A DNA stretch of 34,553 nt, from the NCBI GenBank assembly GCA_903841185.1, contig CAIMIV010000045.1, positions 1 through 34,553 on the forward strand, written 5' to 3'. Numbering within the stretch: the stretch's first letter is position 1; the number at the start of each line of letters is the position of its first letter. Below, piece after piece: positions 9,611-12,599 of the stretch. This DNA is from an uncultured bacterium (GTDB lineage: Bacteria; Patescibacteriota; Minisyncoccia; Moranbacterales; UBA2206). Both the position numbers and the translations under genes were made by a program. The notes below the pieces were generated by a model. That model saw only the letters and a program-made list of their open reading frames with translations, did not search any database and was not told where the DNA came from.

Positions 9611-9780
9611 ACTCAGGCTCTGTTATGAAATAAGTTGTGCAAGTTTGTGCTCAGATTTGCATCAGATTTGTTTAAAAAAATTTGAAAATGTATCCGGGAT
9701 ACTTTGATGATTTTTTTAAACAAAGATGTCGTGAAGATGAGTGCGAAATTGTATGAGTTATTTTGTAACAGAACCTTAGT
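9611..9780. repeat. 170-bp imperfect palindromic element (MITE-like) between the DksA-like gene and lspA
   Basis: The two ends are inverted copies (ACTCAGGCTCTGTTAT and ACTAAGGTTCTGTTAC). Homology continues inward through GTTTAAAAAAAT on both arms to a centre around GTATCCGGGATAC. The left end touches the lspA start codon, and the right end includes the stop codon of the zinc-finger gene. It resembles the 160-bp element at 21129 in size and centre. No transposase is encoded. Confidence 0.75.
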
Positions 9781-10132
9781 TGCAAGTTATGCAAGTTTTG
9801 GCTGACGGATTGGCCTTTAGTCTTTCAATGGCGATTTCTTGGTGGCATTTTTCGCACACGCCATAACTTCCCGTTTCAATTTTGGCCAGGGCGGCAATAA
9901 TATCTTGCAATTTCTTTTCCAAGGTTAGCTCCACTGGCAGGTTGTCGGCATATTCCTCTACTTCAGTGGTGTTGTCTTCGCGATCATTGCCAATTTCTTC
10001 AAAGGTCGGCTCATAGTCGCCTTTTTTAGCGTCAATAGGTTTGGCGATACGATTAAGGTCTTCCTCTAATTCAATTTTTTCGTCTAGCAAGGCTTTTTTT
10101 ATGTCAGCTAGAATATTTGGATCGATAGTCAT
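9776..10132 (-). CDS. DksA/TraR-family C4 zinc-finger protein
   Basis: 118 residues. The N-terminal half is an acidic coiled-coil-like helix pair (DIKKALLDEKIELEEDLNRIA). The C-terminus has a four-cysteine zinc finger, YGVCEKCHQEIAIERLKA...KTCITCN. The GxYGxCxxCGxxIxxxRLxAxPxAxxCxxC pattern is that of the DksA/TraR/YteA family. DksA itself binds RNA polymerase and adjusts the stringent response. Shorter paralogues of this type are widespread and their targets are often unknown, so I give no gene symbol. The stop codon lies inside the palindromic element at 9611-9780. Confidence 0.85.
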   Translation of the reverse strand: MTIDPNILADIKKALLDEKIELEEDLNRIAKPIDAKKGDYEPTFEEIGNDREDNTTEVEEYADNLPVELTLEKKLQDIIAALAKIETGSYGVCEKCHQEIAIERLKANPSAKTCITCN

Positions 10133-10272: not shown

Positions 10273-10668
10273 CTAGGATAAATAAATATTGGGCAGATGT
10301 TTTATTTTAGCTCGGCGGGTTTCCCAGTTGAGCCAAACAGAAATGGCATCAAAACGATGCGGGGCGTCTTCCCAGTGCCGCTGGCGCAGAAAGATGGCGG
10401 CAATCTTGGCTAATTTGCGTAACTTCTGATAATTGATGTTTTCCTCCGGCAAAGTCTGATTGTAGCTTGTATAATCCCTAGTTTTCACCTCCACGAAAAC
10501 AATTTCTTTTTCTTGGGTGTCGCGGGCAATGATGTCAATTTCCCCTACTCTGCGGCCGGAATTGTTTTTAAAATTCATGGCCAAAATCTCATACCCTTTA
10601 TTTTGGAGAAAATTAGCCGCCACCTGCTCACCTGTTTGCCCAGTTGTAGCGGTATTAATATTTGCCAT
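10273..10668 (-). CDS. yraN: YraN family (UPF0102) endonuclease-like protein
   Basis: 131 residues from the ATG at 10668; the frame extends to 10728, but a TGCTATAAT promoter element at 10700-10708 makes the nearer start correct, with AGGA upstream. The fold is a restriction-endonuclease-like one. Visible motifs are TGQTGEQVAANFLQNKGYEIL, then GEIDIIA and IVFVEVKTR, giving the E...D...ExK residues of the family, and RFDAISV near the C-terminus. Its exact substrate is not established in bacteria. It stands alone between a DksA-like gene and the large gene-free region. Confidence 0.9.
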   Translation of the reverse strand: MANINTATTGQTGEQVAANFLQNKGYEILAMNFKNNSGRRVGEIDIIARDTQEKEIVFVEVKTRDYTSYNQTLPEENINYQKLRKLAKIAAIFLRQRHWEDAPHRFDAISVWLNWETRRAKIKHLPNIYLS

Positions 10669-10699
10669 AGAAATTTGTCCTAAGTGTATAATTAATCCT

Positions 10700-10708
10700 A
10701 TTATAGCA
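10700..10708 (-). promoter_or_regulatory. extended -10 promoter of yraN
   Basis: The minus strand reads TGCTATAAT. The -35 is poor. The predicted start near 10693 gives a leader of about 25 bases with AGGA at a suitable distance from the ATG at 10668. Confidence 0.5.
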
Positions 10709-10740
10709 TTTTGAAAACAAAAAAACACCCATGTATAAGG

Positions 10741-10749
10741 TGTGGATAA
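10741..10749 (-). promoter_or_regulatory. perfect DnaA-box sequence (TTATCCACA on minus)
   Basis: TGTGGATAA on the plus strand equals the DnaA-box consensus on minus. A near match (AGTGTATAA) lies at 10683-10691. A single 9-mer is weak evidence for DnaA binding. Confidence 0.4.
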
Positions 10750-10799
10750 GATAAGATGTAATATGGGAACCTAGGGTGCCAATAGGTATGTCAAAAATA

Positions 10800-11284
10800 A
10801 AAATAATGGACAACGTAGAAGCACCCGTAGGTGTTTCGTCGATATGTACGCGTTGGCCTTTCTTGTACTCTTTGGTTTGGGTGAGAAACCATTGTAGTCA
10901 CGAAGGACTAGCGTGTAATGATATTACTAACATACGACATTTTTTGATATTCTTCTGACTTTATTGAATATCTATGACTCTCGGTACCGTTCTCTGGCAT
11001 TTCGCCTTTGATCATCGGCAACTACTTGCAGGAGCCTTTTTTATAATGGCTGCTGGAAGTAGTTACCGACTCGTTTTAAAGAACATTTTTTTATTTTTTG
11101 TTTTTATTTTAATAAAAAATTTTTGGTTTTGGTTTTTTTAGGGTCCTCCGGTCAGAAAACGGAGGCGGCTTCGAGATGTTACTCGAAACACTTGAACAGT
11201 AGAGAGGTTTCAATCGCAAATAGGGGGAAATTGCGATTGAAACTCCTCTACCGTTACTGAAGTTTAGTTTTCAAAGATCACTGT
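10800..11284 (-). ncRNA. candidate structured non-coding RNA of about 480 nt, family unassigned
   Basis: A near-consensus promoter (TTGACT-17-TATAAT, preceded by TGC) points into a gene-free stretch. The predicted RNA starts near 11284 and soon contains a boxA-like GATCTTTGAAAACT. A 21-bp-arm hairpin follows (11199-11251), then smaller hairpins (TTCGAG/CTCGAA and CCTCCG/CGGAGG). Next come an A-rich tract, a second boxA-like TGTTCTTTAAAACG, and a long hairpin (arms TCGGTAACTACTT and AAGTAGTTGCCGA). Later hairpins are TAGTC/GACTA and GGTTT/AAACC. A hairpin plus T-rich tail (ATTATTTTTATTTTT) near 10785-10830 could end it. I looked for tmRNA, RNase P, SRP, 6S and 5S signatures and found none. Alternatively it is a very long yraN leader. 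Confidence 0.5.
11199..11251. repeat. 53-bp palindrome with GTAGAGA/TCTCTAC-type ends
   Basis: Arms of about 21 bases (GTAGAGAGGTTTCAATCGCAA and a near-perfect complement) flank an 11-base G-rich centre. The GTAGAGA end matches the palindromes at 6122 and 16109, but the stem is longer and different. It lies inside the candidate RNA and would form its main 5' hairpin. Confidence 0.8.
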
Positions 11285-11290
11285 AAACTT

Positions 11291-11319
11291 ATTATAGCAA
11301 AAATTAGCGCTTGAGTCAA
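11291..11319 (-). promoter_or_regulatory. very strong sigma70-type promoter of the candidate RNA
   Basis: Minus strand: TTGACT (11314-11319), 17-base spacer, TATAAT (11291-11296), with TGC before the -10. It is among the best promoters in the window, comparable to stable-RNA promoters. Confidence 0.8.
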
Positions 11320-11478: not shown

Positions 11479-11487
11479 TTATCCACA
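11479..11487 (+). promoter_or_regulatory. perfect DnaA-box sequence (TTATCCACA)
   Basis: Consensus 9-mer on the plus strand, opposite in orientation to the one at 10741. The two bracket the gene-free region. Function is not demonstrated. Confidence 0.4.
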
Positions 11488-11528: not shown

Positions 11529-12599
11529 TTATTGCAGGCTTAATTTGTCCAGGAGAGTTTCTACGGTCATCTTAGTAGTACCCAATAAGAAATTGTTCCC
11601 TTGCAAAGCATAGTCAATGGAAAGTTTTTGCGGAGAGATGAGATTTTGGTATCGAACAGCATTGCCTTTATATTGATTAGTCTGAAAAGGAGTTGTCGGA
11701 GGAGTGGCTTCAGTATAGGGCAGGAGGGTGGCTAGCGCTGCGTGCAAAGAACTTTCTTCTTGGGAAAGTTGATTTTTTAGCAAGGATGGGTCAGTTGTTT
11801 TTAAATGCAAGGCGAGACCGGCATTGCCATTATCATTAAAGAAAAAAAGGCGGAAATCTTTTTCCAGCAAAGTCATGGTTTTTGCAGACAATGTGATGTT
11901 GGCCATTTTGGCAAAGTCAACAAATTCAATGGGATTATTGCTTTGATCAACTACGCTAAATTCAATCGGTGTTTTCAGCCCGGAATCGATAACATCTTGG
12001 GCACTTTTTTCTAGCGCTTTTTTGACCATGCCAGCATCAACCGTTGCTGTGTTAAGAGAGAGGTAATTAGGTTTGTCGGCGCTAATTGTTGTTGTCGTTG
12101 CGGAGGGTTTATCTTCGCTTGGTTTGTTGTCGCCTGGATTAGCAGATATTTCTTCAGGGGTGGTTTTTCGGGTAGTAATAAAATAATAGGTGCCCGCTCC
12201 CACAAAAATGGTAATTAATAGGATAATGACAACAGGTATGAAATTGGAGCTGGTTGAAGAAGTTGGCGTGGGGATAGAATTCAACTTGGGCTGAATAGCT
12301 TTATTGACTTGCGAATAGTCGGGATTAGATTTGATTTTTGGTTCATCTGCGAAAGGGGTTTTTTCTGTGGGATTGAGAAAGGGGCTGCTTTTTTGGCTGG
12401 CAGTTAATTCGGACAAATTTATTTTAGCCACTGGTTTTTCAGGATAGGGCACGCCTTTTATGACAGGGTTCTCCATTTCCTGAAGATCTTTAGCCATGGT
12501 GTGGATAGGAATATTTTCAATGGGGTAATCTTTTTCTTGACTGAGGTCTTGATGGCCGACATTATTTTCATCAATGATGGTGTTTTGTTTTGTAAACAT
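11529..12599 (-). CDS. single-pass membrane protein of unknown function
   Basis: 356 residues. The first 120 residues are hydrophilic and Pro/Lys-rich without a signal peptide (MFTKQNTIIDENN...). One membrane segment follows (NFIPVVIILLITIFVGAGTYYFI, about 118-140), then a Thr/Ser/Pro-rich linker (TTRKTTPEEISANPGDNKP). The outer domain is about 180 residues (KPNYLSLNTATVDAGMVKKALE to the C-terminus). The topology should be N-in/C-out. I recognise no catalytic motif. Proteins of this shape are frequent in CPR genomes, often as lone hypothetical genes. It lies downstream of pnp but behind a clear terminator, so it is probably a separate unit; a weak TTGTCT-18-TATATT promoter overlaps that terminator. 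Confidence 0.75.
   Translation of the reverse strand: MFTKQNTIIDENNVGHQDLSQEKDYPIENIPIHTMAKDLQEMENPVIKGVPYPEKPVAKINLSELTASQKSSPFLNPTEKTPFADEPKIKSNPDYSQVNKAIQPKLNSIPTPTSSTSSNFIPVVIILLITIFVGAGTYYFITTRKTTPEEISANPGDNKPSEDKPSATTTTISADKPNYLSLNTATVDAGMVKKALEKSAQDVIDSGLKTPIEFSVVDQSNNPIEFVDFAKMANITLSAKTMTLLEKDFRLFFFNDNGNAGLALHLKTTDPSLLKNQLSQEESSLHAALATLLPYTEATPPTTPFQTNQYKGNAVRYQNLISPQKLSIDYALQGNNFLLGTTKMTVETLLDKLSLQ

Follow-up and report, generated by a model that had tools for sequence, protein, structure and literature searches.

The window comprises positions 1 to 34,553 (forward strand) of contig CAIMIV010000045.1 (assembly GCA_903841185.1), from an uncultured bacterium of the order Moranbacterales. 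The features described here lie on its minus strand unless stated otherwise. A gene for a protein of 356 amino acids (11529..12599) matches no Pfam family and has one likely membrane span; it is a conserved neighbour of the locus, and in relatives it comes after pnp. Downstream lie yraN (UPF0102; 10273..10728 as the open reading frame was listed, with a likely start at 10668) and a dksA/traR-type gene (9776..10132). The space between the 356-residue gene and yraN holds a promoter (11291..11319), with a -35 element TTGACT (11319-11314), 17 bp of spacing and an extended -10 element TGC-TATAAT (11299-11291), and an intrinsic terminator of the form ACACC...GGUGU-UUUUUU (10719..10743), which many relatives have in the same position and form. 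With the start placed about 7 nt past the -10 element, these positions predict a transcript of ~565 nt (10719..11284); the median length of its homologues, by the same rule for start and end, is 512 nt. An earlier note on this DNA, made from the letters, had proposed such a promoter pointing into about 480 bases free of reading frames. The promoter was confirmed, matching 11 of 12 consensus bases in addition to its extended -10, and the same type with a spacing of exactly 17 bp precedes 65 of 66 homologues. An RNA gene is indeed there, and it is longer than claimed, running from ~11284 to ~10719. We found no sense open reading frame of at least 60 amino acids inside the RNA, and the longest short frames of the homologues vary in position and length, which agrees with the proposed absence of coding.

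The RNA folds with a minimum energy of -159.4 kcal/mol (z = -10.2 against dinucleotide shuffles). Its 5' domain consists of hairpin P1, with a lower and an upper stem (11197..11253; 98% of cells paired, 12 of 21 pairs with compensatory change), hairpin P2 (11165..11191; compensatory change in 8 of 8 pairs) and hairpin P3 (11145..11165), whose loop UUCUGAC (11157-11151) is the first half of a kissing loop; every pair of P2 and P3 varies. An A-rich linker of the AAAACAAAAACAAAAA type and a U-tract/A-tract hairpin follow (11087..11139). Both are kept in the homologues that were read, and the arms of the hairpin covary as judged by eye. Beyond them are an extra hairpin that only part of the family has (11014..11070), a small GGC...GCC hairpin seen in the sequence (10996..11006), and hairpin P5 (10946..10972), whose loop GUCAGAA (10959-10953) is the second half of the kissing loop. 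The 3' domain (10838..10938) pairs GUCGUAUGU (10938-10930) with ACAUAUCGAC (10847-10838) around the hairpin GGUUU-CUCACCC-AAACC (10890-10874).

To describe the family we used three covariance models: R1 covers the 5' domain, R2 the 3' domain and R3 P1 alone. In the 5' domain 98.1% of cells are paired and 24 of 33 pairs show compensatory changes, and in the 3' domain of relatives the values are 91.4% and 22 of 23, with slid controls below 50%; both alignments were fitted to their own models, which favours structure, a minor worry given how large the effect is and how far the slid controls fall. The window's own clade has diverged in the 3' domain and gets no score from R2; the helix was placed there by anchors. 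The structured RNA with at least five hairpins that had been read from the window is thus well founded: more than five are present, and the strong covariation among homologues is the more telling evidence.

The P3 and P5 loops are exact complements. At least 6 contiguous Watson-Crick pairs join them in 48 of 61 copies, through at least seven loop-pair versions that include UCUAAC/GUUAGA, UCUGAG/CUCAGA, UCUAAG/CUUAGA, UCUUAGC/GCUAAGA, UCUGGC/GCCAGA and UCUGAU/AUCAGA, and where one loop is absent the other is absent too. A further contact involves the 3' strand of P1 (11194..11206), which is common to P1 and to a long-range helix with a 3' copy, AGAGAACGGUACCGAGAG (10978..10995), that resembles the 5' strand of P1. 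Over 45 distinct strands, cognate partners in this helix scored 25.3 and swapped ones 18.4; by 16 clusters, a grouping that takes out relatedness only partly, the scores were 25.7 and 18.4. None of 2000 permutations reached as high, and a same-sense control showed nothing. Judging by these pairings, both helices of the P1 3' strand appear to be selected. Since that strand has two possible partners, each supported by covariation, it is reasonably probable that the RNA adopts two mutually exclusive folds.

The loop of P1, UUCCCCCUAU, hardly varies; this C-loop, as it is called hereafter, is kept even on stems of unrelated sequence. In the window it reads UUUCCCCCUAU (11220..11230), invariant among the aligned sequences of the order and kept in other classes, and in two distant loci (L189, L204) the stem has changed completely while the C-loop persists. 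Ribosomal RNA was considered as its target and yielded no partner. For 16S rRNA no conserved complement was found, AGGGGGA being absent from the 16S of the order; the 23S segment AUAGGGG(G/C) is a partial and unspecific match that gives 7-8 pairs only and ignores the loop variants. Counts of complement words in two large contigs likewise showed no enrichment. A short hairpin bearing this loop (GGTCAATTCCCCCTATTTGACC) also precedes a terminator in a different genome of the class (L205, ~1510-1575), where the C-loop may be used on its own.

Patescibacteria are tiny parasitic or symbiotic bacteria with small genomes, and they make up a large, mostly uncultured share of bacterial diversity. A DNA search gave a match in 37 of 37 genomes, the window's own included, and a pattern scan of named genomes yielded 66 loci, whose labels were with few exceptions Ca. 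Moranbacteria, Moraniibacteriota, Parcubacteria group or unnamed bacterium. The RNA was also seen on contigs labelled Saccharibacteria (GW2011_GWC2_48_9) and Micavibrio (L092 and L096), which are probably wrong labels or binning errors. R1 was positive in 118 of 131 genomes of the order (Ca. Moranbacteria), and in 95 of the 105 of good quality; in a class-wide sample it found 36 of 38 genomes of the order as against 0 of 346 others, and R2 recovered one of the two that were missed. There is one locus per genome, nearly all second matches being the same hairpin read on the opposite strand.

Across the phylum sample, R1 gave three matches outside the class (genomes G498, G491 and G566), each of which has a promoter, a UUCCCCCURU loop on a long hairpin and, downstream, both dksA and a segment that is the complement of the P1 3' strand. 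Such a segment is weak evidence alone at L189, where 17% of shuffles equal it. The P1 stem of G566 is wholly different in sequence, with the loop retained. R3 found these three again together with a fourth genome, G606, which has a weak score (E = 0.001) but the same loop on a different stem and dksA nearby. The R3 match L204 is likely a real homologue, in which the long-range helix was not found, and L199 stops at a contig edge; five weak R3 matches in the phylum (L201, L202, L203, L206 and L207) resemble chance matches or coding sequence and were set aside. R2 had no match outside the order. Detection outside the order is therefore patchy, and the RNA may either be rare there or have diverged too far for the models. 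Conservation in relatives, on which the earlier note had made its proposal depend, was nonetheless found across the entire order and beyond.

Two boxA-like motifs had also been proposed, and the two fared differently. The first, GATCTTTGAAAACT (11266..11279), scores 12.6 with a matrix built solely from 18 boxA sites in rRNA leaders of the order. The 66 leaders of the RNA average 11.9 with this matrix, compared with -0.8 after single-base shuffling, and 85% of them exceed a score of 6, compared with 6% of shuffles; boxA is unclear in the remaining 15% and in the distant homologue L187. This motif therefore matches the lineage's own rRNA-leader boxA above chance. The second, TGTTCTTTAAAACG (11072..11085), has a conserved GUUCUUU half. 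As AGAGAAC at 10995-10989 is the complement of that half, the motif is not necessarily a boxA and may simply be a helix arm. Because the rRNA-leader matrix fits its leaders, the RNA begins like an rRNA leader, and we consider it likely that the first boxA is used in transcription. In E. coli, boxA alone is enough to recruit antitermination factors (PMC10250234).

With its own promoter and terminator, near-universality in the order, strong covariation and a near-unchanging C-rich loop, the locus is almost certainly a stand-alone new RNA gene. As an overall explanation we lean towards a trans-acting structured RNA that is transcribed like rRNA and whose C-loop meets a partner; for trans action through the C-loop in particular, the sequences leave the chances about evenly balanced. 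A long untranslated RNA needs antitermination against Rho. Transcription would be strong, the rRNA-type boxA making use of the NusB/S10 antitermination complex of rRNA. P1 would form first during synthesis, and the later 3' copy could then capture its 3' strand, so that P2, P3 and the A-rich linker would be enclosed, with the P3-P5 kissing loop as a lock. The finished RNA would present the C-loop to a trans partner, either protein or RNA, and would serve as a scaffold or regulator in trans and not as the leader of the next gene.

A leader is nevertheless what the neighbourhood might suggest. The homologues lie nearly always between the gene following pnp and yraN-dksA-lspA (at a few loci one neighbour gene was not recovered), and on the same strand as the genes downstream. 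At least three homologues of other classes are likewise upstream of dksA, which is thus retained there too. The RNA could then be a long attenuator or a riboswitch-like 5' region, its exclusive helices and its terminator together controlling yraN-dksA-lspA, and the presence of two exclusive pairings and of a terminator at the RNA's end would suit such a role. However, the exclusive helices (11206-11194 and 10995-10978) do not overlap the terminator hairpin (10743-10719), -10-like TATAAT elements are frequent between the terminator and yraN, and some homologues have no yraN or have it replaced. A length of 375-600 nt with tertiary contacts would also be unusual for a leader. We regard control of yraN/dksA in cis as unlikely, since the helices miss the terminator and there are often promoter-like elements after it, although some cis role is conceivable given how constantly the RNA sits upstream of dksA.

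The same pairings could be read as contacts between molecules. In an RNA-only homo-oligomer of the OLE/ROOL/GOLLD sort, for which there is precedent (PMC12286853), the kissing loop and the P1 strand exchange would be intermolecular. The RNA is large and pseudoknotted, with an A-rich linker and a strand-swap geometry, which speaks for such an assembly, but the pairing data fit inter- and intramolecular contacts alike and there is no sequence relation to OLE, ROOL or GOLLD. We think such an assembly improbable, and it would be compatible with a trans-acting RNA. OLE, ROOL and GOLLD are also long stand-alone RNAs with extensive folding, pseudoknots and poorly understood function. The window RNA has no Rfam relation to them either, and it differs in being chromosomal and near-universal in its order, with a fixed neighbourhood, an rRNA-type boxA and the C-loop hairpin. 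In type the large ornate RNAs (PMC12286853) come nearest to it, with no sign that it is a member.

The likeness to rRNA operon leaders goes beyond the position of boxA (the site of NusB/S10 antitermination) soon after the promoter. About half of the order's rRNA leaders contain a boxA-like GAACYTTRAMAA by a strict pattern, and most have a hairpin, AATYRCAATTTWTTGYGRTT, before 16S whose stem sequence is that of P1. This pre-16S hairpin (L099-L132) is often followed by AGTCC. The RNA might accordingly be a decoy for the rRNA machinery, titrating NusB/S10 or a maturation factor with its boxA and its pre-16S-type hairpin. But in the distant carriers G491 and G498 the rRNA leaders have boxA and lack the hairpin, while the RNA keeps the stem, and elsewhere (L189, L204) the stem has changed wholly and the loop has stayed. 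We consider a decoy rather doubtful. A hairpin common to the RNA and rRNA leaders as a general feature was rejected, as it is missing from the distant carriers' rRNA leaders. The RNA gene, moreover, precedes no rRNA, and its C-loop and downstream parts are unlike rRNA.

Upstream of the RNA gene is a perfect DnaA box (11479-11487, plus strand; consensus CTGTGGATAACTTGT), ~150-170 bp from the -35 element and followed by an AT-rich palindrome, e.g. AAAAGTAAATTACTTTT. Such a box was present upstream of the RNA at 49 of 67 loci, with orientations of 48 to 1, and the density of boxes was 0.75 per kb near the RNA compared with 0.09 elsewhere. A second perfect box (10741-10749, minus strand) overlaps the start of the terminator in the window only, among the loci examined. 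A link between the RNA gene and DnaA is possible. The GC-skew minimum is 24-33 kb from the RNA gene on the two contigs concerned (contig C1 of G030 and of G498), so in these genomes the gene is probably near the replication origin. That the locus is a DNA element, for example the origin, in place of an RNA gene is suggested by the fixed place of the box at most loci and by the nearby skew minimum, and is very unlikely given that the minimum lies elsewhere, that the covariation is of the RNA type and comes with promoter and terminator, and that the RNA is retained in clades without the box.

Searches of Rfam 15 at gathering cut-offs gave no match for the window RNA or for 12 homologous loci, and a relaxed threshold gave the window RNA chance-level matches only; a known RNA was what the earlier note had named as the result that would speak against its proposal. 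6S RNA (RF00013) had no match at the window RNA, and ARAGORN found no tmRNA in the region. tmRNA has tRNA-like ends and a tag frame and RNase P RNA has a conserved P4 core, and each usually occurs once in a genome. The lack of tmRNA and RNase P signatures held up, both being encoded elsewhere in relatives: tmRNA was above cut-off elsewhere in 18 of 20 genomes, and RNase P RNA was located elsewhere in 19 of 20, the window's own included. Two genomes, G000 and G004, have no tmRNA above the Rfam cut-off though near relatives have one, perhaps owing to assembly gaps. A divergent form of a known housekeeping RNA (tmRNA, RNase P, SRP or 6S), to which length and ubiquity might point, is scarcely credible and already largely refuted by those separate copies and by the want of an Rfam match.

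No match in Rfam, strong covariation and presence throughout the order together give good support to the suggestion that this is a new, unassigned structured RNA. We found no literature on structured RNA in Moranbacteria or Patescibacteria, in a search whose coverage left most preprints outside, and in our view this large structured RNA represents a new class, of which an unpublished description is possible. It resembles raiA (ModT) RNA and others whose role is obscure in being conserved, structured and stand-alone, and differs from them by phylum and by its lack of an Rfam match. It may share with CsrB- and 6S-type RNAs a trans role via exposed loops, but it has a single C-rich loop and not the GGA repeats of CsrB, and neither the long bubble hairpin of 6S nor an Rfam match.

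Returning to a trans-acting RNA, we offer a more speculative and rather unlikely extension. The class may predate the split of several Patescibacteria classes and be made with the rRNA antitermination machinery; strand exchange would convert it to a locked, perhaps multimeric, particle, and its one almost invariant C-loop would intervene in a central process, for instance the making of ribosomes or, together with DksA, the control of RNA polymerase. The covariation-supported model, the fixed locus and the conserved loop make the RNA directly testable, and a new covariance model would allow others to annotate it. Near-universal as it is in reduced genomes, an RNA of ~500 nt likely matters to the cell.
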